From Gemmatimonadaceae bacterium (GTDB taxonomy: Bacteria; Gemmatimonadota; Gemmatimonadetes; Gemmatimonadales; Gemmatimonadaceae), in contig JADLCY010000015.1 in the NCBI GenBank assembly GCA_020846935.1, positions 186,001 through 250,000 of the forward strand: 64,000 nt of DNA, in the 5' to 3' direction. Of this stretch, positions 38,246-49,045 are shown in pieces. The translations under genes and the position numbers were made by a program. The notes under the pieces were generated by a model. That model worked only from the letters and a program-made list of their open reading frames with translations. It was not told where the DNA came from and made no database searches. Positions within the stretch are counted from its first letter, which is position 1. Every line of letters starts with the position of its first letter.

Positions 38246-40660
38246 ATGGACGCCATCAGACAGGATCTCCAGTTCGCGCTTCGGTCGCTCCTCAAGTCGC
38301 CGGGATTCACGGCGATTGCGATCCTGTGCATGGCGCTGGGCATCGCGGCCAACGTGTTCGTGTACAGTCCCGTCAACGCGCTGCTGCTGCGCCCGCTGCC
38401 GTACCGCGATGCGGGCCGGCTCATGCACCTCAACACCTGGAGACTCGGCGAGCGCCGCGAGAACTTCGCCAGCTGGTCGTGGCTCGACGTGCAGGACGTC
38501 GGGGCGGGCATGTCCGGCGTCCTGAGTGAGGTCGGCACGTATCGCCTGGGGGAGTGGAACGTCGGCGGGATGGACGAACCCGAGCGCATCCGCGGCGCTC
38601 GCGTGTCGCCGTCGCTGTTTCCGATGCTTGGCCTGCAGCCGGCCGTTGGGCGGTTCTTTCGGCCGGACGAAGAGCGCAACGCTGCGGTCGTGATCCTCGG
38701 GCATGGCGTCTGGACGCGGAAGTTCGGCGCCGACTCGGCGGTGGTGGGCCGTGCCATCACCGTGAACGGCCTGCCGCATACCGTAATCGGTATCATGGCC
38801 CCGGGCGTCCGGTATCCGGAGACCGAGGATCTGTGGCTGCCGACCGACCCGACCGAGGTGGCGATGGCTCAACGCAACCAGCGCAACCTGCAGTTGGTCG
38901 CGCGGCTCGCGCCGGGCGTGTCCGAAGAGGAGGCCAATGCGAAGCTGTCCACGGTGATGGCGGCCCTCGCCGCGAAGTTCCCCGACACGAACCGGAACCT
39001 TGGCGGCTGGATGTTCGAGCTGAGCGAAGACGTGCGCTCGGAAGTGCGGGCGATCTTCCTGACCATGGTGGGCGCCGTGGCGTTCGTCCTGCTGATTGCC
39101 TGCTCGAACGTGGCGAACCTGCTGCTCGCCCGTGGCTCCGGTCGCCAGCGCGAGCTGGCGGTGCGGCTCTCGATGGGCGCCACGCGTGGGCGACTCGTCA
39201 GGCAGCTGCTCACCGAGAGCCTCCTTCTGGCGCTGGTGGGCGGCCTGCTGGGCGCGCTGCTCGGCGCGTGGGGCGTGGACGTGTTCGTGCGGTGGGGCAT
39301 GCCGGCGACCGTGCCGTTCTGGATGCGCTTCGACGTGGATCGCACCGTCATGGGCATCACGCTGGCCGTCACCGTGGTATCGGGGCTCGCGTTCGGCATC
39401 GTGCCTGCCCTCAGGCTCTCGGCGCCGGACCTCTCGCAGACCCTCAAGGAAGCCGGTGGCCGCGGCGGCAGCGCGCACGGCACCGTGGGCCGCCTGCGCG
39501 CCACGCTCGTGGTCGCACAGCTCTCGCTGTCACTCGTGCTGCTCGCGGGTGCGGCGCTGATGGTCCAGAGCTTCCTGCGTTCACGCACGGCATCGCTGGG
39601 CCTCGACCCTAACCACGTGCTCACCGGCGAGGTCTCGCTCACCGGCACGAAGTACGCGACCGACTCGCTGCGCAGCAGCGCGCGGGCCCGGCTGCTGGCG
39701 GCGATTCGCGCAATCCCCGGCGTGGAGGAGGCGGCCCTCGTCGGCTGGCGCCCCATCAGCGACTGCTGCTCGGGCGACGCGTATCGCATCGCCGGTCGTA
39801 CCTACGAGCCGACCGACGTGCCCGTGGCGCAATACAACACCGTGTCGCCCGGCTACTTCTCCGCCCTGCGCATCGCGATGCTGCGCGGACGTGATTTCAC
39901 CGACGCCGATCGGCTCGGAGGCGCGAAGGTCGTGATCGTCTCTCAAGCGCTCGCTGAGCGTGAGTGGCCCGGGGCTGACGCGGTTGGCCAGGTCATGACG
40001 ATCGGATCCGACTCGACGCCCGTGACCGTGGTGGGAGTCGTGGGCGACGTCGTGGTGCGACGGCTGACCGATCAGCTCCGCAAGGAGCACCTGTACGTCC
40101 CGTTCGACCAGGGGAGGTTTTTCGGCGCCGACCTGGTCATGCGCACGGCTGGGGATCCGTATGCGGTGGCCAGCGCGCTCAAGCAAGCCATCGCCGGCGT
40201 CGATCCCGACCTGCCCGCGAGTTCCATCGTGTCGATGACCGACGCAGTGCGCGACCGCATGTTCGAGGGGCGCGTCTACGGCGCGATGTTCGCGTTCTTT
40301 GGCATCGCCGCACTCCTGCTCGCGAGCGTGGGCCTCTATGGCGTGGTGTCGTTTGGCGTCTCGCAGCGCACGCAGGAGGTCGGCGTGCGCATGGCCCTCG
40401 GCGCCTTGCCGCGCGACGTCATCGGGCTCGTGCTTGGTGGCAGTGCGCGCCTGCTGGGTCTGGGCCTCGCGATCGGTGTACCGGCAGCGATCGGTCTGGC
40501 GCAGGTGCTGCGCGGATCGTTGTACGGCATCTCCGCGAGCGATCCCCTCACGTTCATCGCGATCGCGGCCCTGCTCGGCGTTGTGGCGCTGCTGGCGTCA
40601 TGGATCCCGGCGCGGCGTGCAACGCGGGTGGACCCCGTCGTCGCCTTGCGGGCGGAGTAG
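38246..40660 (+). CDS. ADOP-type (MacB-like) duplicated permease
   Basis: The 804-residue protein matches the acidobacterial duplicated orphan permease family. It has the N-terminal RQDLQFALRSLLKSPGFTA and first helix, a MacB periplasmic core domain, a first FtsX membrane domain at about residues 270-410, a second helix and core domain, and a final FtsX domain ending WIPARRATRVDPVVALRAE. Unlike orphan ADOPs, it sits with an adaptor and two ATPases, so it is probably the membrane part of a tripartite export or lipoprotein-extraction machine. Confidence 0.92.
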   Translation: MDAIRQDLQFALRSLLKSPGFTAIAILCMALGIAANVFVYSPVNALLLRPLPYRDAGRLMHLNTWRLGERRENFASWSWLDVQDVGAGMSGVLSEVGTYRLGEWNVGGMDEPERIRGARVSPSLFPMLGLQPAVGRFFRPDEERNAAVVILGHGVWTRKFGADSAVVGRAITVNGLPHTVIGIMAPGVRYPETEDLWLPTDPTEVAMAQRNQRNLQLVARLAPGVSEEEANAKLSTVMAALAAKFPDTNRNLGGWMFELSEDVRSEVRAIFLTMVGAVAFVLLIACSNVANLLLARGSGRQRELAVRLSMGATRGRLVRQLLTESLLLALVGGLLGALLGAWGVDVFVRWGMPATVPFWMRFDVDRTVMGITLAVTVVSGLAFGIVPALRLSAPDLSQTLKEAGGRGGSAHGTVGRLRATLVVAQLSLSLVLLAGAALMVQSFLRSRTASLGLDPNHVLTGEVSLTGTKYATDSLRSSARARLLAAIRAIPGVEEAALVGWRPISDCCSGDAYRIAGRTYEPTDVPVAQYNTVSPGYFSALRIAMLRGRDFTDADRLGGAKVVIVSQALAEREWPGADAVGQVMTIGSDSTPVTVVGVVGDVVVRRLTDQLRKEHLYVPFDQGRFFGADLVMRTAGDPYAVASALKQAIAGVDPDLPASSIVSMTDAVRDRMFEGRVYGAMFAFFGIAALLLASVGLYGVVSFGVSQRTQEVGVRMALGALPRDVIGLVLGGSARLLGLGLAIGVPAAIGLAQVLRGSLYGISASDPLTFIAIAALLGVVALLASWIPARRATRVDPVVALRAE

Positions 40661-40772
40661 CCCCGCGAACATCCGAGATGCAGGACTCCCGCTCGCCGTA
40701 GTAGTGTTCAGGCATTCGGCGCGAGGCCTGCGCCGCACGGGGCACCCCTCCCCGAGTCTCGCACCCAGGATC

Positions 40773-41513
40773 ATGGCGTTCTTCAAGTCGAGCAAGCCAG
40801 CCACCCCGGTCGAAGACCCGCCGGTCGTCGGCCCGCTGGTCTCGTTGCGCGGTCTCGAGAAGTTCTACGACACTGCGGCCGGTCGCGCCTACGTGCTGCG
40901 CCGGATCAGTTTCGACATCCAGCCGGGCGAGTTCATCACCATCATGGGTCCGTCGGGCGCGGGCAAGTCCACGCTGCTCGCCATCCTCGGGATGTTCGAC
41001 GGGCAATGGACCGGTGAGCTCGGGTTCCGCGGACACGCCGTGCATGCGATGTCCAACAAGGATCGGCTGGCGCTCAACCGGCGCTACATCGGGTTCGTCT
41101 TCCAGCAGTATCACCTGCTCGACGACCTGACCGTCGCGGAGAACCTCGACGTGCCACTGTCGTATCGGGACGTGCCGCGCGACGAGCGCGCCGCGATCGT
41201 CGGGGACGCGCTCGACCGCTTCTCGATCGTCGGAAAGAAGGACCTGTATCCGCGCCAGCTCAGCGGCGGGCAGCAGCAGCTCGTTGGCGTGGCGCGGGCG
41301 GTGATCGCCAGGCCGGCCCTGCTCCTCGCTGACGAGCCGACCGGCAACCTGCATTCGTCGCAGGCGCGCGAGATCATGGAGCTGTTCGTGCAGCTCAATC
41401 GACAGGGCACGACGATCGTGCAGGTCACGCACTCGGAGGAGAACGCGCGCTTCGGCTCGCGGATCATCACGGTGCGCGACGGGTGGATCGTCGAGGACAC
41501 GCCGACGGGCTGA
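40773..41513 (+). CDS. Second ABC transporter ATPase of the exporter operon
   Basis: The 246-residue ATPase has Walker A MGPSGAGKST, Q-loop FVFQQYHLLDDLTVAENLDVPL, signature LSGGQQQ and Walker [13 protein letters not shown]. Two positions depart from its neighbour: the Arg after LSGGQQQ is Leu, and the D-loop reads NLHS instead of NLDS. The switch His is in VTHSEENARF. It may pair with the first ATPase as a heterodimer with one weaker site. The ATG at 40773 follows the permease by 112 bases, and its stop overlaps the next start (TGATG). Confidence 0.87.
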   Translation: MAFFKSSKPATPVEDPPVVGPLVSLRGLEKFYDTAAGRAYVLRRISFDIQPGEFITIMGPSGAGKSTLLAILGMFDGQWTGELGFRGHAVHAMSNKDRLALNRRYIGFVFQQYHLLDDLTVAENLDVPLSYRDVPRDERAAIVGDALDRFSIVGKKDLYPRQLSGGQQQLVGVARAVIARPALLLADEPTGNLHSSQAREIMELFVQLNRQGTTIVQVTHSEENARFGSRIITVRDGWIVEDTPTG

Positions 41514-42880
41514 TGGCCCGCCTCCTCGTCGCCGACGACCAGGCGGACGTCATCGAGGCGCTCCGCCTGCTCCTCAAGCGCGAGGGGCACGTGGTGGAGT
41601 CGGCGCACACGCCGGCCGAAGTGGCCACGATGGTGTCGGCGCGCGACTACGACAGCGCGATCATCGACCTCAACTACACGCGGGACACGACGTCGGGTCG
41701 CGAGGGGCTCGACCTGCTGCAGCAGTTGATGACACTCGACGCCACCTTGCCCGTGGTGGTGATGACGGCGTGGGCGAGCATCGACTCGGCCGTGGAGGCC
41801 ATGCGGCGCGGCGCGCGCGACTACGTGGAGAAGCCCTGGGACAACGAGCGGCTGCTCTCGATCGTGCGCTCGGCGGTCGATCTCGGGCGTGCGCTGCGCC
41901 ACAACCAGCGGCTGGAGGGCGAGAACCGGTCGTTGCGCCATCCGGCGACGCCGTCGTTCATCGCCGGATCGCCGGTGATGCGGCCGGTGCTGCAGCTCAT
42001 CGAGCAGGTGGGCCCGTCGGACGCCAACGTGCTCATCACCGGAGAGCACGGCACCGGCAAGGAACTGGTCGCGAACCTGCTCCACGGCGCGTCGCCGCGC
42101 ATGGGCAAGCCGTTCGTCGCGGTGAACCTCGGCGGGATCGCCGAGGGCGTGTTCGAGAGCGAGATGTTCGGGCACGTGAAGGGCGCGTTCACCGACGCGC
42201 GTGCCGACCGGCCCGGGCGATTCGAGATTGCGCAGGCGGGCACCCTGTTCCTCGACGAGATCGGCAATCTGTCGTTGGGCCAGCAGGCCAAGCTGTTGCG
42301 CGTGCTGCAGACCGGCGAGTTCGAACGCGTCGGGTCGTCCAAGGTGCGACAGGCCGATGTGCGCGTCCTCTCGGCGACGAACGTCGACATTGCGAGTGAA
42401 GTGGCCGGGGGGCGCTTTCGCGAGGACCTTCTCTTTCGGATCAACACGATCGAGCTGCACCTCCCTGCCCTGCGGGAGCGACGCGAGGACGTGGGCCCAC
42501 TCGCGCACAGTTACCTCCAGCGGCACGCGCAGCGGTACCGCAAGCCGGCGCGCGGATTCGAGCCCGCGGCGATGCAGGCGCTGCTCGACCACGCCTGGCC
42601 CGGCAATGTGCGCGAGCTGGGGCATGTGATCGAGCGCGCCGTGTTGCTCGCGCGCGGAGAGCTGATCGGCGCCGGTGACCTGGCGCTGCGACCGGCGGCA
42701 TCGGCGTCCGTGCGCCTCGAAGACCTGCCGCTCGAGGAGGTGGAGCGGATCCTCATCCGGAAGGCGCTCGCGAAGCACGGAGGCAACGTGTCGCGGGCGG
42801 CGCGGGCGCTCGGCCTCTCGCGCAGCGCGCTCTACCGCAGGCTGGAGCACTTCCGGATCGTGGGCCCGGACGCGGGCTGA
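41513..42880 (+). CDS. NtrC-family sigma-54-type response regulator
   Basis: The 455-residue protein has a receiver domain (acid pocket D8/D9, phospho-acceptor D52 in IIDLNY, and a Lys in YVEKPWD), an AAA+ domain with Walker A GEHGTGKE, and a C-terminal Fis-type helix-turn-helix (NVSRAARALGLSRSALYRRL). The loop that contacts sigma-54 reads GAFTDA (residues 224-229) instead of GAFTGA. It overlaps the ATPase stop by one base and precedes a histidine kinase by 6 bases, so it is most likely the regulator of this exporter. Confidence 0.9.
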   Translation: MARLLVADDQADVIEALRLLLKREGHVVESAHTPAEVATMVSARDYDSAIIDLNYTRDTTSGREGLDLLQQLMTLDATLPVVVMTAWASIDSAVEAMRRGARDYVEKPWDNERLLSIVRSAVDLGRALRHNQRLEGENRSLRHPATPSFIAGSPVMRPVLQLIEQVGPSDANVLITGEHGTGKELVANLLHGASPRMGKPFVAVNLGGIAEGVFESEMFGHVKGAFTDARADRPGRFEIAQAGTLFLDEIGNLSLGQQAKLLRVLQTGEFERVGSSKVRQADVRVLSATNVDIASEVAGGRFREDLLFRINTIELHLPALRERREDVGPLAHSYLQRHAQRYRKPARGFEPAAMQALLDHAWPGNVRELGHVIERAVLLARGELIGAGDLALRPAASASVRLEDLPLEEVERILIRKALAKHGGNVSRAARALGLSRSALYRRLEHFRIVGPDAG

Positions 42881-42886
42881 CCCGTC

Positions 42887-44218
42887 ATGATCGCGCGCCC
42901 GCCCCGCGAGCCGCCGCCGCACGAACGTCGGGTACTCCTGCTCGCGCTGGCGTCCGGGCTCCCCGGGGCCATCGTCACCGTCCTGCTGCTCGTCGCCGGG
43001 GACTACTCGGCGAAGACCGTGTGGACCGTTGGAGGGTTGGTGACCGGGGCGTGGCTCGTCGGGGCGATCGCGCTGCGGGAACGCGTGGTGCGTCCGCTGC
43101 AGACGTTGTCCAACATGCTCGCGGCCCTGCGCGAAGGCGACTTCTCGCTGCGCGCGCGACTCAGTCGTTCGGACGACGCCCTCGGGCTCGCATTGCTCGA
43201 AATCAACATGCTCGGCGAGACCCTGCGTTCGCAGCGACTTGGCGCGCTCGAGGCCACGTCGCTCCTGCGCGCGGTGATGTCGGAGATCGACGTCGCCATC
43301 TTTGCGTTCGACGACACCGGGGCCCTGCGCCTCGCCAACCGGGCCGGTGAGCGCCTGCTGGCGCAGCGCTTCGAGCGCATCGCCGGCCGTCCGGCGTCGT
43401 CGTTAGGTGTGGCCGAACTGCTCGGCGGGGACTCGCCGCGCGTGTATGACCACGCCTTTCCCGAGCGCGCCGGTCGATGGGAAGTGCGTCGCACCACCTT
43501 CCGGCAGGAGGGCCGGCCCCACGTGCTCCTCGTGGTCACCGACGTCACGCGAACGCTCCGGGAGGAGGAGCTGCTCGCGTGGCAACGGCTGGTGCGGGTG
43601 CTGAGTCACGAGATCAACAACTCGCTGGCGCCCATCAAGTCGATCGCCGGCAGCCTCCGCGCGATGAGCGATCAGGCGCCGGGTGCTCCCGGTGCGCGCG
43701 AGGATCTGCACCGCGGACTCGACATCATCGAGGGCCGGGCCGATTCGCTGGCACGGTTCATGTCCTCGTATGCGCGGCTGGCGCGCCTGCCCTCGCCCGT
43801 GCGGCGTCGCTTCGATCTCGGCGCGATGGTACGCCGCGCGGCGGGCCTCGAATCGCGGCTCGCGGTTGGCGTGGAGGGTGGCCCTGCGATCGAGATCGTG
43901 GGCGACCCCGATCAGCTCGAGCAAGCGCTGATCAATCTTGTGCGCAACGCGGTCGACGCCGTAGGCCCGGACGGTGGCCGGGTATGCGTGGGTTGGCGGA
44001 TCGACGATCGCTCGGTTGAGATCCAGGTCGAAGACGACGGACACGGAATCAGTGGCACGTCGAACCTCTTCGTGCCGTTTTTCACGACGAAGCCCGAGGG
44101 CTCCGGGATTGGGCTCGTGCTCTGCCGTCAGATCGCCGAGGGGCATGGGGGATCGGTCACCATCGAAAATCGAAGTCACGGACGGGGCGCGGTGGCGCGC
44201 CTGCGTCTCCCGCGCTAG
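42887..44218 (+). CDS. Membrane PAS histidine kinase (NtrY-like)
   Basis: The 443-residue kinase has two transmembrane helices near residues 20-40 and 48-62, a HAMP-like segment (RVVRPLQTLSNMLAALREGDF), a PAS domain, a phospho-acceptor H241 in VLSHEINNSLAPIKS, and an ATPase domain with N box LINLVRNAVDAV, G1 DDGHGI and G2 GSGIGLVLCRQIAEGHGG. It is the cognate kinase of the preceding response regulator by position. Its last 62 bases overlap the end of the convergent propeller gene. Confidence 0.92.
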   Translation: MIARPPREPPPHERRVLLLALASGLPGAIVTVLLLVAGDYSAKTVWTVGGLVTGAWLVGAIALRERVVRPLQTLSNMLAALREGDFSLRARLSRSDDALGLALLEINMLGETLRSQRLGALEATSLLRAVMSEIDVAIFAFDDTGALRLANRAGERLLAQRFERIAGRPASSLGVAELLGGDSPRVYDHAFPERAGRWEVRRTTFRQEGRPHVLLVVTDVTRTLREEELLAWQRLVRVLSHEINNSLAPIKSIAGSLRAMSDQAPGAPGAREDLHRGLDIIEGRADSLARFMSSYARLARLPSPVRRRFDLGAMVRRAAGLESRLAVGVEGGPAIEIVGDPDQLEQALINLVRNAVDAVGPDGGRVCVGWRIDDRSVEIQVEDDGHGISGTSNLFVPFFTTKPEGSGIGLVLCRQIAEGHGGSVTIENRSHGRGAVARLRLPR

Positions 44219-45578
44219 TGGCCCCGCAGGCCGCGCAAGAGAGAGCCTGCGACCGACACCGTCTGTCAGGGCGAGGACCGCGCCAACGTTCGAGACCGCC
44301 ACGAGCCGCATCGGAGCTGGGCAGTAGCCGCGGGGGCCAGAGAAGTCCAGCGCCCTGGGGCCGGGCGTAAGCCAGCAAGATCGGCCCGACGCAAACTGGT
44401 TGCTCGTCAGACCGGCGTGCGGCCCTGCCTTCCTCGCTCCTGAGGTAGCGACTCAGGACTTCCACATCATCGTCGTCCTGCGTTACGACGTAGAGATACC
44501 TCGGCGAAGCCCCAACGATGCGGGCGCGCGCTGGAAGTTCCAGAGTTGCGATCTTCCCGCTCGCCCTGCTAACCACATCGTAGCGCGTAGCGAGAAACGG
44601 CGGTGGCGTGAGTCGCCTGACAGCGATCACTCCCTCACCAAGAGTCACGAGCGCCTGGTTGACGAAGGGCGGCAGTCGGTCGGGCCACGGCGGAACCTCA
44701 TGCGGGCCAATTGGAGGCTCCGCGGCCGGCCAGCGCCTCCGAGTGAACGCCGACTTCCATTCCGTTGTAATCCTGGGAAACTCGCTCTCGATCACGGTAC
44801 CCTCCTCCAGCACGCCTCGCGGATCAACCCAGTCGACGCGATATGGCTCACGACGAAGGAGCGCTATCCAGCCATCCTTGAGCAGCGCCACTTCGTCGGA
44901 GCCCACCAATGGATTTTCGAGTAGCCAACGGGAGGCAGGCGGAGGGCGTTCGCGCCACACGATGGTCTGGACCGCGCTGATCCCCCGAAGCCGGGCGACG
45001 GTATCCGCTCGCGGGCCAAGAGACCGCCCCTGCGTACCAAACCCGGATGCCAGGTAGCGTCTAATTACCAACAGCGAGTCCGCCGTGCCAACACTCGGAA
45101 CATATGGCACGCCCGTGCTTCGCCGAAACGCGTACGGCAGCACGTCCAGGATATGGCCCAGCGTGTCCGCACCAGACAGGCGGACTGACTTGCGCCCAGT
45201 GACCTGGATCGTCGCTGTGATCCTCTCGCCAACCACAACGATCCAACGCCCGGTACGCTGATCGTCCACGATCGTGGTGTCACCGCCCAGTGCAAACAGG
45301 CCGATTGCGCGGCGATACTCCCCGGGCCCGTCCCCCGTACGCCCGATGGGCACCGACTTGCCGGTCTCGAAGTCAATCAGCATCACCAGCTGGTCTGCGG
45401 TATCGAGCACGATGGCCTTGGTGGCCGAAATCTCCCGGATGGCGGCAACGCCCACAAAGCGCTCGGACGCCTTACCGACGAGGCGGCCCGGCATTCGCTG
45501 TGCTGCGAGTTCCCCGGGAGCTATCGCGCCGTGCAGTAGCGCCACGGACACGGCCACGCTCGCTACGGCTGCGTTCAC
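44157..45578 (-). CDS. Exported six-bladed beta-propeller protein with an unusual C-terminal extension
   Basis: The 473-residue protein has a signal peptide (ASVAVSVALLHGAIAPGELAAQ), then a propeller of the BF3164/six-bladed type with the diagnostic GRTGDGPGEYRRAIGLF turn followed by GGDTTIVDDQRTGR. It is related in layout to the protein encoded at 45970. The GTG at 45578 has a perfect AAGGAGG site. The paralogue ends just after VERLSRHP, but here the frame continues about 85 residues beyond VEVLSRYL and overlaps the kinase gene. The tail is Arg-, Pro- and Cys-rich and may reflect a lost stop or a frameshift. The partner ligand is unknown. Confidence 0.75.
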   Translation of the reverse strand: MNAAVASVAVSVALLHGAIAPGELAAQRMPGRLVGKASERFVGVAAIREISATKAIVLDTADQLVMLIDFETGKSVPIGRTGDGPGEYRRAIGLFALGGDTTIVDDQRTGRWIVVVGERITATIQVTGRKSVRLSGADTLGHILDVLPYAFRRSTGVPYVPSVGTADSLLVIRRYLASGFGTQGRSLGPRADTVARLRGISAVQTIVWRERPPPASRWLLENPLVGSDEVALLKDGWIALLRREPYRVDWVDPRGVLEEGTVIESEFPRITTEWKSAFTRRRWPAAEPPIGPHEVPPWPDRLPPFVNQALVTLGEGVIAVRRLTPPPFLATRYDVVSRASGKIATLELPARARIVGASPRYLYVVTQDDDDVEVLSRYLRSEEGRAARRSDEQPVCVGPILLAYARPQGAGLLWPPRLLPSSDAARGGLERWRGPRPDRRCRSQALSCAACGATSAGDAGAPPRPVRDFDFRW

Positions 45579-45663
45579 GGCGCCTCCTTGCACTCCATGG
45601 CGCGACCGCACCCGAAACCGCGAAGTTGCGTGGCCGTCCGAGCCAGCGCGTTCGCCACTGGTC

Positions 45664-45897
45664 TCACTCAATCGGCGTCCCACAATAGAGCCTGAGCTGT
45701 CCGCCAAACTCGGCGCAGTTGGCCTGATCAGTCGCGCATCCGTAAGCCGCGCACGCGCCCTCCACGTCCAGCGGGCAATAGCTTACCGTGACCGTCTGCG
45801 GACACGATTCCGTCGTTCTGACACGGTGCGGCGCGGCGAGCGCATGGCTGCCCATTGCGGTAACAACCAATCCCAGTATCGCGGTTCTTTGCATCAT
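45664..45897 (-). CDS. Small secreted cysteine-rich protein (6 Cys)
   Basis: The 77-residue product has a signal peptide (MQRTAILGLVVTAMGSHALAA). The mature part of about 55 residues has six Cys: SCPQ, YCPLD, ACAAYGC (two), NCAEF and YCGT. The ATG at 45897 has a GGAGG site. It lies between two propeller genes on the same strand, and a DsbA-like thiol oxidase is encoded upstream, so disulfide formation is likely. It resembles in plan the NVEALA-type peptides next to six-bladed propellers in Bacteroidetes, but I see no direct motif match. Confidence 0.75.
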   Translation of the reverse strand: MMQRTAILGLVVTAMGSHALAAPHRVRTTESCPQTVTVSYCPLDVEGACAAYGCATDQANCAEFGGQLRLYCGTPIE

Positions 45898-45969
45898 GTT
45901 GCCTCCATCGGTGAACTCACGTGGGCGCGCGGCGCGGCCCGCATTGAGTGGTGCGACTCTACCCAGGCA

Positions 45970-47106
45970 TCACATCGGGTGACGGCTCAGGCGCTCAACT
46001 CCACCCTCATCCCGAGTCACTACCACCACTGTACTCGGGCCAAACGAGATGATTCGCTGGTTGGAACCAACGATCATCGTCTGCACCAGGCCCGCAGCTC
46101 GGTCCACGATGTAGTACCTACCCTCGGGGTGCCGCGCGCTCGGCGTCAATCGAATGGCGACTCGTCCGCTGGGCATTGGCAGAACTGCTCGGGCCAGGAA
46201 GGGCGGCGCAACACGCGGCCAGTGTGGGTAGTCGCTCGCCGCGAACGGCTTCGAGCCCTCAGCGGCGAGTCGCCGCAAGACAAACGTCTTCTCTGCCGCG
46301 TCGAGTTCCACCTCGTCACTCGGTAGGTTGTGACCCTGGAGTCGCCTACCGTCCGCAGAGATCCATTCGACCCGGAACGGCGCGAGGCGCACCAGGGCCA
46401 CCCAGCCGTCTGGCAGCATGACGGCTTGCTCGAAGGTCGGCAGCGCTTCGCGCAGCACGTGTGTTATCTCCTGACCACCCGACCGCCGCACGAGCATGTT
46501 CGGTGGGCCCCGATAGCCCCCGGCGATGCGGGCAATGGTGTCCACTCTTGGGGTGGTGATTGACGCACGCAGTACGAATTGCGAATCCGCGAACTCGGGG
46601 AAGTGTCCGAAGGAGGTGGCGATGCCGCGTGGGCGCGGCCGCGAAATGAAACCTCGCGTACCGAGGAGGTGAGACGGGGACGCTCCGCCATAAAGCATGG
46701 GCCCGAGCGTCAACGCGCGGGGATCGGCGACCGTGAGGCTCCGAAGGAAGCGATCGGCCACAAACACGCTCCATCTCCGATTCTGGAGGTCGGTGATGAT
46801 GCATGTATCACCTTTGAGCCCCACCACGAACCCTGGCTGGGCAAACTCACCGGGGCCCTCGCCCAGGCGGCCTACGTCGACAACCCGTCGCGTGCGCCAA
46901 TCGACGAGACTCGCCGCTCGCAGACGCCAATCTGTAAGGAGCAATCGGTCATCATCGAGTGATCGCGCCGACAAGATGGACGCGAACTCGGCGTCCAGGC
47001 GCGATGATGCCGCCGCGAGCGTCGTCTGAGCGTCCTCCCGGCGTGGCGCCAATGCTATCGCGAAGACAGCCAACAGACGAACGACACGAGAGATTGGACG
47101 GCTCAC
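45970..47106 (-). CDS. Exported six-bladed beta-propeller protein
   Basis: The 378-residue protein has a signal sequence (VVRLLAVFAIALAPRREDAQ) and the six-bladed propeller hallmark GRLGEGPGEFAQPGFVVGL followed by CIITDLQNRRWSVF. Later blades show VMLPDGWVALVRLAPFRVEWISADG and RYYIVDRAAGLV. GTG at 47106 is favoured because GGAGAGAG lies at ribosome-site distance; a GTG at 47127 overlapping the DsbA stop is the alternative. Such proteins are exported or surface-exposed in FCB bacteria, with no known ligand. It is the paralogue of the protein encoded at 44157. Confidence 0.8.
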   Translation of the reverse strand: MSRPISRVVRLLAVFAIALAPRREDAQTTLAAASSRLDAEFASILSARSLDDDRLLLTDWRLRAASLVDWRTRRVVDVGRLGEGPGEFAQPGFVVGLKGDTCIITDLQNRRWSVFVADRFLRSLTVADPRALTLGPMLYGGASPSHLLGTRGFISRPRPRGIATSFGHFPEFADSQFVLRASITTPRVDTIARIAGGYRGPPNMLVRRSGGQEITHVLREALPTFEQAVMLPDGWVALVRLAPFRVEWISADGRRLQGHNLPSDEVELDAAEKTFVLRRLAAEGSKPFAASDYPHWPRVAPPFLARAVLPMPSGRVAIRLTPSARHPEGRYYIVDRAAGLVQTMIVGSNQRIISFGPSTVVVVTRDEGGVERLSRHPM

Positions 47107-47123
47107 GATGCTCTCTCCGCGGA

Positions 47124-47795
47124 TCACTTTCGCGCCAGGAGCGAGTCGATCGTTCGAACGAGCGCCGGCTCAGGAACCGCCCCGTAGAACCTGAGCCCAT
47201 TCACGAGAATCGTTGGTGTCCCCCTGACACCAAGGGGGCGCCCGGCCCGCAGCCCTCGTTCGGCAGCTGAATCTCCGATGCCCTGGATGCAACGCTTGAA
47301 CTCGGCCGTGTCCAGCACGCCGGCGTCCGCTGCATAGCTCGTCCATGACTTGAGCCCCAGCGAGTCCTGCTTCCGGTAAACCTCGTCGACCATAGCCGAG
47401 AACCGATCCTGGGCACCCGCGCATTCAGCAGCTCGGGCAGCGGGGCGGGCGAAGCGATGTGAGGGTAAAGGGTAGTGCACGAACGTATGTGAGACACGGT
47501 CGCCGTACCGTGCAAGAATCACCTTCATCGTTTCACGCGATCGCTTGCAGTATGGGCACTCCAGATCGCCAAACTCCACCACCTTAACGCGCGCATCGGC
47601 ACGCCCCTCCGTGTGGCCGACCGCCGTCAGGTGTTCCCAGTTCGTCATCAGCACCACCTCAGGAATCGACCCGTCCGGCGGTGACCGTTGGCCTCCGAAC
47701 TCCCGTTTTGCAAGCGCCGCAGCGACAGTAACCGCTGCGGCGCAAAGCACCACCAAGGCGATGCGCTCAAGGCGAGAACCAATTGCCGTTGTCAC
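47124..47795 (-). CDS. Membrane-anchored DsbA-like thiol-disulfide oxidoreductase
   Basis: The 223-residue protein has one N-terminal membrane helix (RIALVVLCAAAVTVAAALA) and a DsbA/thioredoxin_4 domain with active site C80-P-Y-C83 in EFGDLECPYCKRS and the cis-Pro loop VRGTPTILVNG. Two more Cys occur in AAECAG and FKRCIQG. It should act in the periplasm, probably as an oxidase or carrier. It lies between the genes for a cysteine-rich peptide (19 bases upstream) and a propeller, which suggests that it folds those substrates. The start is GTG at 47795. Confidence 0.88.
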   Translation of the reverse strand: MTTAIGSRLERIALVVLCAAAVTVAAALAKREFGGQRSPPDGSIPEVVLMTNWEHLTAVGHTEGRADARVKVVEFGDLECPYCKRSRETMKVILARYGDRVSHTFVHYPLPSHRFARPAARAAECAGAQDRFSAMVDEVYRKQDSLGLKSWTSYAADAGVLDTAEFKRCIQGIGDSAAERGLRAGRPLGVRGTPTILVNGLRFYGAVPEPALVRTIDSLLARK

Positions 47796-47813
47796 TGATC
47801 GAGAGCTCGCAGG

Positions 47814-48068
47814 CTACTCGTTGCAACCGTACATGACGCCGTCGGTGCAGCCCGGCGTAGGACCTCCAGAGCAGCCTGGGAGCCCAGTCGGACAGCCCCT
47901 CGCCGTGCACTCCGCCTTGATCTGTTCCTCGTCGCACGCGATGATCCCAGGCATGCAGAAATAGCAACTATCGACGGATGTGGCCGCGGCAGAGCGAGGC
48001 AGGGCAAGCTCGACGAATCCGATGAGGCAGGTTGCACATGCCAAGGCAAGCAAGGGGCGTTGGGTCAT
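47814..48068 (-). CDS. Small secreted cysteine-rich protein (8 Cys)
   Basis: The 84-residue product has a signal peptide (LLALACATCLIGFVELALPRSAAA). The mature part of about 55 residues has eight Cys: SCYFC, ACDEE, ECTARGC, GCSGG, GCTDG and a terminal YGCNE. The ATG at 48068 has a strong AGGAGG site, and a sigma-70-type promoter lies upstream (48143-48171). It is the first gene of the peptide-DsbA-propeller unit. It is not recognisably homologous to the 6-Cys peptide but has the same design. Confidence 0.78.
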   Translation of the reverse strand: MTQRPLLALACATCLIGFVELALPRSAAATSVDSCYFCMPGIIACDEEQIKAECTARGCPTGLPGCSGGPTPGCTDGVMYGCNE

Positions 48069-48142
48069 CTGAGCCTCCTGGTTCCGGATCGTTTAAGTGT
48101 TTGCTCCAGTGGCAGCCGCATCGTACCCTTGGACTGACAGCC

Positions 48143-48171
48143 ACTATGCCCCGAGGCTCCCGGCCAGTCAA
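48143..48171 (-). promoter_or_regulatory. Promoter of the cysteine-rich peptide unit
   Basis: On the reverse strand, TTGACT (48171-48166) and CATAGT (48148-48143) are separated by 17 bases. The transcript would begin near 48136, giving a leader of about 68 bases before the ATG at 48068. Confidence 0.6.
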
Positions 48172-48213
48172 CGTCGCTCCGTCGCACGGCGTGACGATCG
48201 GTTGCGCGACCCC

Positions 48214-48930
48214 TCAGAGGTCGATGTCGCCAAGCCCCAGCGCACTCATGAATTCGCGCGTGGTATTGCGGACGCGGTGTCGCATCCGCAGCGCGCGGAG
48301 GGCGGTGGGGGTCAAGCCCTCCAGAGCTTCTGTGGCTGCGGTCGCGCCTTCGCCGCTGTTCGTCGTCAACTCCCGGACATGAAGCAGGCGCCCCAACCGC
48401 AACAGGCAGCCAATGGATGGCAGGCCCTCCTGCCTCAGTAGCCTCGCCAAGTGGGATCGATTGAAGCGAAACCGAGTGGCAACATCGCCGACCCTCCAAA
48501 CGCGATGCCCGTTTCTGAGGCACGCAAGCACCACGGGTCGCAGGCGATTGGCTTCCAGACAATCGTGGACGGCGCGGATTTCGACCTCGGGCACGGGTGC
48601 GGCGACCCTCACCTGAACTGCGGCTGCGAACGCGTCCATTGCTCCTGCCAGATCCGTGAGGAACACGTCGTCCGCCCCGGCGATGAACAGGTGCTGCAGC
48701 CGCAGATGCGTTCCTGCGCGCCTCTCCCCGCACACGATGATGCCTACATGAGGGTGGGCGCGCCGCAGCTGGCGGATATCGCGCTCTGTACTCGCTCCCT
48801 CGGACGTCCGGGATCCAAAGACGACGAGCCGCGCAGCGCCGAGCGTCGCCGGCGACACCTGCCTGATGGCGACTCTCACGGGCGAGTGGCAGCGCGTAAG
48901 GGTAGCAATGGATCCCCAGAGGATCCCCAC
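48214..48930 (-). CDS. AraC-type regulator with a receiver-like N-terminal domain; start interrupted by a poly-G run
   Basis: From GTG at 48930 the frame gives 238 residues. The N-terminal part resembles a pseudo-receiver (RDIRQLRRAHPHVGIIVCGER, then AGADDVFLTDLAGAMDAF), and the C-terminal part is an AraC-type helix-turn-helix (RVGDVATRFRFNRSHLARLLRQEG). A better start, ATG at 48967 with a strong GGAGGAG site, lies just upstream, but 12 G residues between it and the gene put it out of frame; 11 or 14 G would restore MEWGGG-YLVEESVGILW. The gene lies directly upstream of the cysteine-rich peptide unit on the same strand, so it is its likely regulator. Confidence 0.72.
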   Translation of the reverse strand: MGILWGSIATLTRCHSPVRVAIRQVSPATLGAARLVVFGSRTSEGASTERDIRQLRRAHPHVGIIVCGERRAGTHLRLQHLFIAGADDVFLTDLAGAMDAFAAAVQVRVAAPVPEVEIRAVHDCLEANRLRPVVLACLRNGHRVWRVGDVATRFRFNRSHLARLLRQEGLPSIGCLLRLGRLLHVRELTTNSGEGATAATEALEGLTPTALRALRMRHRVRNTTREFMSALGLGDIDL

Positions 48931-48948
48931 GCTTTCCTCTACTAGGTA

Positions 48949-48960
48949 CCCCCCCCCCCC
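48949..48960. repeat. Homopolymer run of 12 C (12 G on the coding strand)
   Basis: The run sits five bases after the third base of the ATG at 48967-48965 and before the regulator's conserved region. Runs of this length slip readily during replication and are a classic basis of on/off phase variation; they are also prone to sequencing error. Confidence 0.85.
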
Positions 48961-49045
48961 ACTCCATGTCTCTCTCCTCCAATAGGCCCGCCTGGCGCAA
49001 ACGGTGACCATCGGCATCGAGTGTGCGACGCACGCCTCGGATCAG

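Follow-up and report, generated by a model that had tools for sequence, protein, structure and literature searches.

The locus described here raises the question of why two small exported Cys-rich peptides are encoded beside a thiol oxidoreductase and two β-propellers in a bacterium of the Gemmatimonadaceae, and whether these genes form a single unit. The window is the whole 64,000-nucleotide (64-kb) stretch of contig JADLCY010000015.1 that was analyzed. A sequence-only reading of it had proposed a complete machine that makes, folds, and binds or displays a disulfide peptide. We conclude, with a probability of about 0.7, that the operon is an accessory unit making a disulfide-stabilized miniprotein in the cell envelope. 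The making and folding of the peptide appear well supported from sequence; we infer propeller binding, peptide release and a purpose.

The six genes lie on the minus strand between 44157 and 49017. An ORF scan places them, in order of transcription, as a candidate regulator, pep1, DsbA, propA, pep2 and propB (Table 1), so that all six adjacent reverse-strand genes listed in the sequence-only reading were recovered at approximately the positions it had assigned. The stop codon of the DsbA gene is overlapped by the GTG start of propA. GC3 is 0.69–0.75 in all six cassette genes vs 0.79–0.92 in six neighbors, which makes them atypical for the genome. Because of such codon use, most cassette genes escaped a gene caller that had been trained on typical genes, and ORFs were scanned directly instead. 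A search of an anti-phage library gave no match. Adjoining the cassette on the plus strand (38246–44218) are genes for a MacB-like permease, an ABC ATPase, an NtrC-type regulator and a histidine kinase. These genes could encode an exporter, but MacB-like permeases are common in Gemmatimonadota.

Table 1. Features of the cassette in the window.
Feature	Coordinates	Strand	Remarks
Candidate regulator, 267 aa	48214..49017	-	HTH at the C terminus, AraC-like but below threshold; start codon uncertain
TTGACT-17-CATAGT, sigma-70-like site before pep1	48143..48171	-	Chance frequency
pep1, exported 8-Cys peptide (precursor 84 aa, mature form ~55 aa)	47814..48068	-	Recovered by family profile
DsbA-like thiol oxidoreductase, CPYC, N-terminal membrane anchor	47124..47795	-	Profile matches
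propA, exported six-bladed NHL-like β-propeller	45970..47127	-	Structure model, profiles
pep2, exported 6-Cys peptide (precursor 77 aa)	45664..45897	-	No C2/C7 pair, unlike pep1
propB, second exported six-bladed propeller	44157..45578	-	Propeller domain ends near 44440

Both peptide genes have an ATG start, an RBS-like sequence upstream and a signal peptide, and the mature products contain eight (pep1) and six (pep2) Cys, in agreement with the two small exported Cys-rich proteins first predicted. No other ORF in the window satisfies a filter for length, signal peptide, at least six Cys, ATG start and RBS, and ten triplet-shuffled windows yielded zero ORFs under the same filter. A family profile of 24 peptides recovers pep1 and its relatives, and the family is alignable. 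The family has no model in Pfam or NCBIfam, where the few sub-threshold matches were each to one member only and where the peptides matched no known bacteriocin family. The NVEALA profile (PF14055) matched none of the 24 peptides, and its best hit in the window's own genome had an E value of 0.8, below the cut-off.

Four Cys columns are invariant across 32 mature peptide sequences, and the family pattern is a four-Cys core (C3, C5, C6 and C8) with optional Cys pairs. C2 and C7 are lost jointly: 24 sequences have both, five have neither, three have one only and none has only the other (p = 3e-4, a value that is indicative only since the alignment rows are related). The three exceptions look like alignment shifts. 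By eye, the first and fourth Cys are absent together in L144 (both copies) and L092. A C2–C7 disulfide bond is thus predicted for family peptides and, less firmly, a C1–C4 bond. The mature peptides are net acidic in 40 of 45 cases, with a median charge of -4. A structure model of the peptide (pLDDT 75) has a β-α-β-β arrangement and found no PDB match at E ≤ 0.001; at this confidence no fold was named.

Tandem copies occur at some loci. In L191 (1446–3572) three near-tandem peptide copies are followed by a propeller and a DsbA, with a different 6-Cys peptide further on. The leaders of these copies are 91–94% identical and the cores 56–75%. The tandem copies of L076 show the opposite, a core more conserved than the leader. 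We make no claim of positive selection on the cores, because dS is also raised in L191 and the pattern is reversed in L076.

The oxidoreductase of the window matches Thioredoxin_4 (E = 4.7e-20, 72.9 bits, cut-off 23.2) and DSBA (E = 4.7e-9, 36.7 bits, cut-off 25.6). It has a CPYC motif and one N-terminal hydrophobic helix, as expected of the membrane-anchored CPYC oxidoreductase described in the sequence-only reading, and both Cys of the CxxC are invariant in 34 DsbA relatives. A three-sequence DsbA profile was used to sample 79 genomes of the window's family, from which 40 high-scoring (cassette-type) loci were examined together with 20 control loci of lower score. Among the 40 cassette-type DsbAs, 24 have a Cys-rich signal-peptide ORF on the same strand within 450 bp upstream, a set picked by similarity to the DsbAs of the window's own genome and not a random sample, vs 0 of the 20 ordinary ones (Fisher p = 2e-6, which overstates independence because the sequences are related). 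The background for such an upstream ORF is 17 of 943 other ORFs. Inspection by eye raises the count to about 28 of 40 when ORFs overlapping the DsbA frame or downstream copies (L070, L090) are included; by the filter, a third or more of cassette-type loci have no peptide.

In a DsbA tree, peptide-linked rows and controls fall on opposite sides of one branch (SH-aLRT 91), and three of the 40 cassette-type DsbAs (L098, L105 and L108) group with the controls. Shuffled peptide labels required a mean of 17 changes, and none of 500 shuffles was as low as the observed arrangement, from which one row (L016) is to be discounted since its peptide label is a false positive, an ORF inside the regulator.

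The linkage was also approached from the peptide side, as an independent test in which the DsbA was ignored. The 24-peptide profile matched 28 of 298 genomes of the phylum at E ≤ 0.01. Eight new loci (L140–L147) were found by peptide alone at E ≤ 3e-4, and a DsbA follows the peptide directly in all eight; in four, the short flanks also reach a propeller-like frame. Weaker peptide matches (L148–L150 and L152–L154) are immediately followed by propeller-like frames, and the fetched flank contains a DsbA in just one of the six. These rest on their neighbors, because E values near 0.005 occur by chance in other phyla. The sequence-only reading had named the absence of a conserved neighborhood as its refutation; this test was run, and it did not refute the reading.

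A 34-sequence DsbA profile at E ≤ 1e-42 reached 84 of 298 genomes in eight coded families; some ordinary DsbAs are among these matches, such as three that neighbor VKOR-like genes (L253–L255). Forty loci were fetched from outside the window's family, and the arrangement recurs among them in further families of the class. Of their 42 DsbAs, 17 have a peptide no more than 1.7 kb upstream under the strict filter, and 22 have an adjoining propeller. With a looser Cys count, peptides of four to seven Cys were found beside eight DsbAs of family f6 (L256, L258, L260 and L262–L266) and downstream in L242, L244, L245 and L248. In the phyla of an Acidobacteriota record (247 genomes) and a Rhodothermia record (198 genomes) the peptide profile stayed at chance level except for L285. 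In this locus (696–1761; Rhodothermia record's phylum group) a leader-plus-Cys peptide immediately precedes a propeller-like frame that seems to begin with a lipoprotein signal; spread of the cassette beyond Gemmatimonadota is possible. In two myxobacterial records (L177, 4101–4451; L189, 4093–4431) the ORF immediately upstream of a DsbA encodes an exported 8-Cys product whose pattern is different. In a DsbA-profile scan of named genomes, ordinary DsbAs from many phyla dominated the matches, but L237, L191 and L235 were obtained from it. L237 (Gemmatimonadaceae, JAGNMU010000076.1) repeats the order of the window, with an 8-Cys peptide, a DsbA and a propeller.

RpoC of the window's own genome shares 70–76% identity with two Gemmatimonadetes records and one Gemmatimonadaceae record (the last match being a 250-residue fragment), vs 54–58% for its principal matches in Acidobacteriota, Myxococcus and Rhodothermia records, which makes Gemmatimonadota its most likely phylum. 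This genome contains fourteen propeller matches and several further arrangements of the same kind. Locus L018 encodes a 10-Cys peptide, a DsbA and a propeller. L015 has a 6-Cys peptide, a propeller-like ORF and a CFSC thioredoxin-like protein, and L023 a 6-Cys peptide, a propeller-like ORF, a thioredoxin-like protein and a second 6-Cys peptide. L016 consists of a regulator, a DsbA 48% identical to that of the window and a propeller, and no peptide was found in this cassette. Directly after it, L016:5070–6668 gives a weak RimK-like ATP-grasp match.

The structure model of propA (pLDDT 88.4) is confident, matches solved six-bladed propellers over the whole domain and has an NHL-type fold. Its best matches are NHL six-bladed propellers, with Z = 19.1 to Brat (1q7f) over 256 residues, and its sequence profiles also reach NHL proteins and 4raa, titled a putative exported protein. 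PropB is 27–28% identical to propA. Two exported six-bladed propellers had been predicted, and the model of propA and the identity of propB to it bear this out. Neither propeller of the window exceeds a Pfam cut-off; against DUF5128, propB scores 11.9 bits (cut-off 22.9) and propA has no match. Five of the 24 propellers of the set match DUF5128 at E ≤ 0.01, and that of L237, at 30.7 bits, is above the gathering score. The last ~90 aa of propB (44157–44440) lie beyond the propeller domain, where the ORF runs into the 3' end of the kinase gene on the plus strand. They are probably read-through, and the original stop codon may have been lost. Charge matching between peptide and propeller was considered and rejected, cassette and non-cassette propellers being alike.

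A propeller was detected by profile in 10 of the 40 family loci, in nine of them directly downstream of the DsbA. CarboxypepD_reg/Plug-like proteins are encoded in 11 of the fetched loci and MacB-like permeases in five of the 40 cassettes; propellers, CarboxypepD_reg/Plug-like proteins and MacB-like permeases are each absent from all 20 control loci. This distribution indicates that the peptide and DsbA are the core and that the third gene occupies a variable slot. The propeller, taken in the sequence-only reading as a part of the system, is thus often nearby but not obligatory, being replaced elsewhere by CarboxypepD_reg/Plug or MacB-like proteins.

The candidate regulator had been called AraC-type, but the HTH_AraC match at its C terminus (E = 0.013, 16.0 bits) is below the gathering score of 26.6. 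It is 25% identical to the regulator of L016. Homologs lie beside three cassettes only (the window, L016 and L072), so a dedicated regulator is not supported as a general feature. The sigma-70-like site is well placed before pep1, but with one site found and 0.7 expected by chance in the region it does not stand out as the clear promoter that had been reported. A tract of 12 G (minus strand, 48949–48960), the sole homopolymer of at least nine in the window, falls in the 5' part of the regulator coding sequence. It is a candidate phase-variation site; alternatively, the regulator start codon lies downstream of it. Of the complete machine initially envisaged, conservation strongly upholds the peptide with its dedicated oxidase, often near a propeller; a dedicated regulator, a distinctive promoter and an obligatory propeller are not upheld as general features.

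These observations suggest the following mechanism. Pep1 and pep2 would be made with Sec signal peptides and exported, a step that is strong from sequence. The membrane-tethered periplasmic DsbA would then oxidize them, giving two core disulfides among C3, C5, C6 and C8 and the optional pairs. This step is proposed because of the phylum-wide linkage, its biochemistry being inferred, and the peptide is very probably the dedicated substrate of the neighboring DsbA. The DsbA would presumably be recharged by a VKOR-like protein whose gene lies at another site; such a gene was recognized by eye in L022 of this genome. Once folded, the peptide, acidic in most cases, may be bound by the cognate propeller, either within the periplasm or on the cell surface, a prediction that we put at about even odds. 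Since CarboxypepD_reg/Plug proteins or MacB-type permeases take the partner slot in other genomes, a role as envelope receptor or in export is suggested. The peptide would most likely act beyond the cell that makes it, either as a signal or as an effector between bacteria, and any one specific purpose is doubtful. A phylum-wide system of peptide-partner recognition, in which a hypervariable miniprotein, a private oxidase and a matched envelope partner, be it propeller, Plug protein or permease, would serve kin recognition or competition under a regulator possibly switched by the 12-G tract, is a rather unlikely extension.

The peptide could be bacteriocin-like, released against other bacteria after maturation by the DsbA, exported by the MacB-like permease where present, with the propeller or Plug protein protecting the producer or acting in targeting. 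The antimicrobial RiPP TMcin provides a precedent for a dedicated DsbA, and the patchy distribution and atypical GC3 of the cassettes are in keeping with such a role. MacB-like permeases occur at some cassettes and at no controls, but are common in the phylum; the diversified cores behind conserved leaders in L191 are countered by the reversed pattern in L076. Since the mature peptides are mostly acidic, unlike most membrane-active bacteriocins, and neither a processing peptidase nor an obvious immunity gene was seen to recur at the loci, we regard this reading as unlikely. The same is our estimate for a cell-cell or self signal, in which the peptide would be the ligand, the propeller or Plug protein the receptor and the regulator the output. 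Several parallel peptide-partner pairs within one genome and the acidic, structured nature of the peptides would suit it, as would the regulator homologs beside three cassettes; most cassettes, however, have no regulator, and no membrane segment linking the regulator to the periplasm was noticed.

A role for the peptide as thiol buffer, redox sensor or metal ligand in the periplasm, in place of a folded product, is quite improbable. The very high Cys content and the thioredoxin-fold partner would fit, but the conserved Cys framework and pairwise loss are as expected for disulfides, an oxidizing neighbor would remove free thiols, and the loci examined showed no metal gene that recurs. That unrelated envelope genes lie together by chance, or that the small ORFs are spurious, would fit the many spurious ORFs of high-GC genomes and the chance-level promoter. 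For the family as a whole this is very improbable given the control loci, the low background, the DsbA beside all eight strong independent peptide matches, the empty shuffled windows and the alignable family.

An envelope unit making a disulfide-stabilized miniprotein thus stays the preferred reading. The cassette defines an unnamed disulfide miniprotein family across several families of a little-studied phylum and links it to a private folding enzyme. It makes the joint role of envelope propellers and Cys-rich peptides directly testable, and the cassettes are a source of stable miniproteins with a folding helper encoded next door.

Several known systems resemble parts of the cassette. In Bacteroidota, NVEALA short exported peptides adjoin exported six-bladed propellers of the BF3164/DUF5128 type. 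This pairing is shared with the cassettes; the differences are that no NVEALA match exceeded the cut-off here and that a DsbA is part of the Gemmatimonadota unit. The closest solved folds to propA are the NHL propellers of Brat and TRIM2/3/71 (Z 16–19), but those domains are cytoplasmic and eukaryotic and bind RNA or proteins, whereas the cassette propellers are exported and bacterial, at ~10–15% identity.

E. coli STII is a Sec-exported peptide that depends on the Dsb system and exits via MacAB-TolC (PMC5985334). It shares with the cassettes a small exported peptide, oxidation by DsbA in the periplasm (predicted here) and a MacB-type permease, which in the cassettes is MacB-like and near some of them. 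However, STII uses the general Dsb system, whereas the cassette DsbA is dedicated and co-encoded, the cassette peptides matched no known family searched, and their partner in the window is a propeller. The TMcin clusters of staphylococci encode TmcD, a DsbA-family protein whose CxxC is needed for normal peptide oxidation (PMC13252029). Like the cassettes, they encode a DsbA-family oxidoreductase with a disulfide peptide (predicted as such in the cassettes), but TMcin has one disulfide and a transmembrane helix, belongs to a Gram-positive RiPP cluster and has no propeller. A search of mainly open literature found no description of the peptide family. There are precedents in kind for pairs of peptide and propeller and for dedicated DsbAs; what appears to be new is that both come together in a single operon that is conserved, diversified and variable in its partner.
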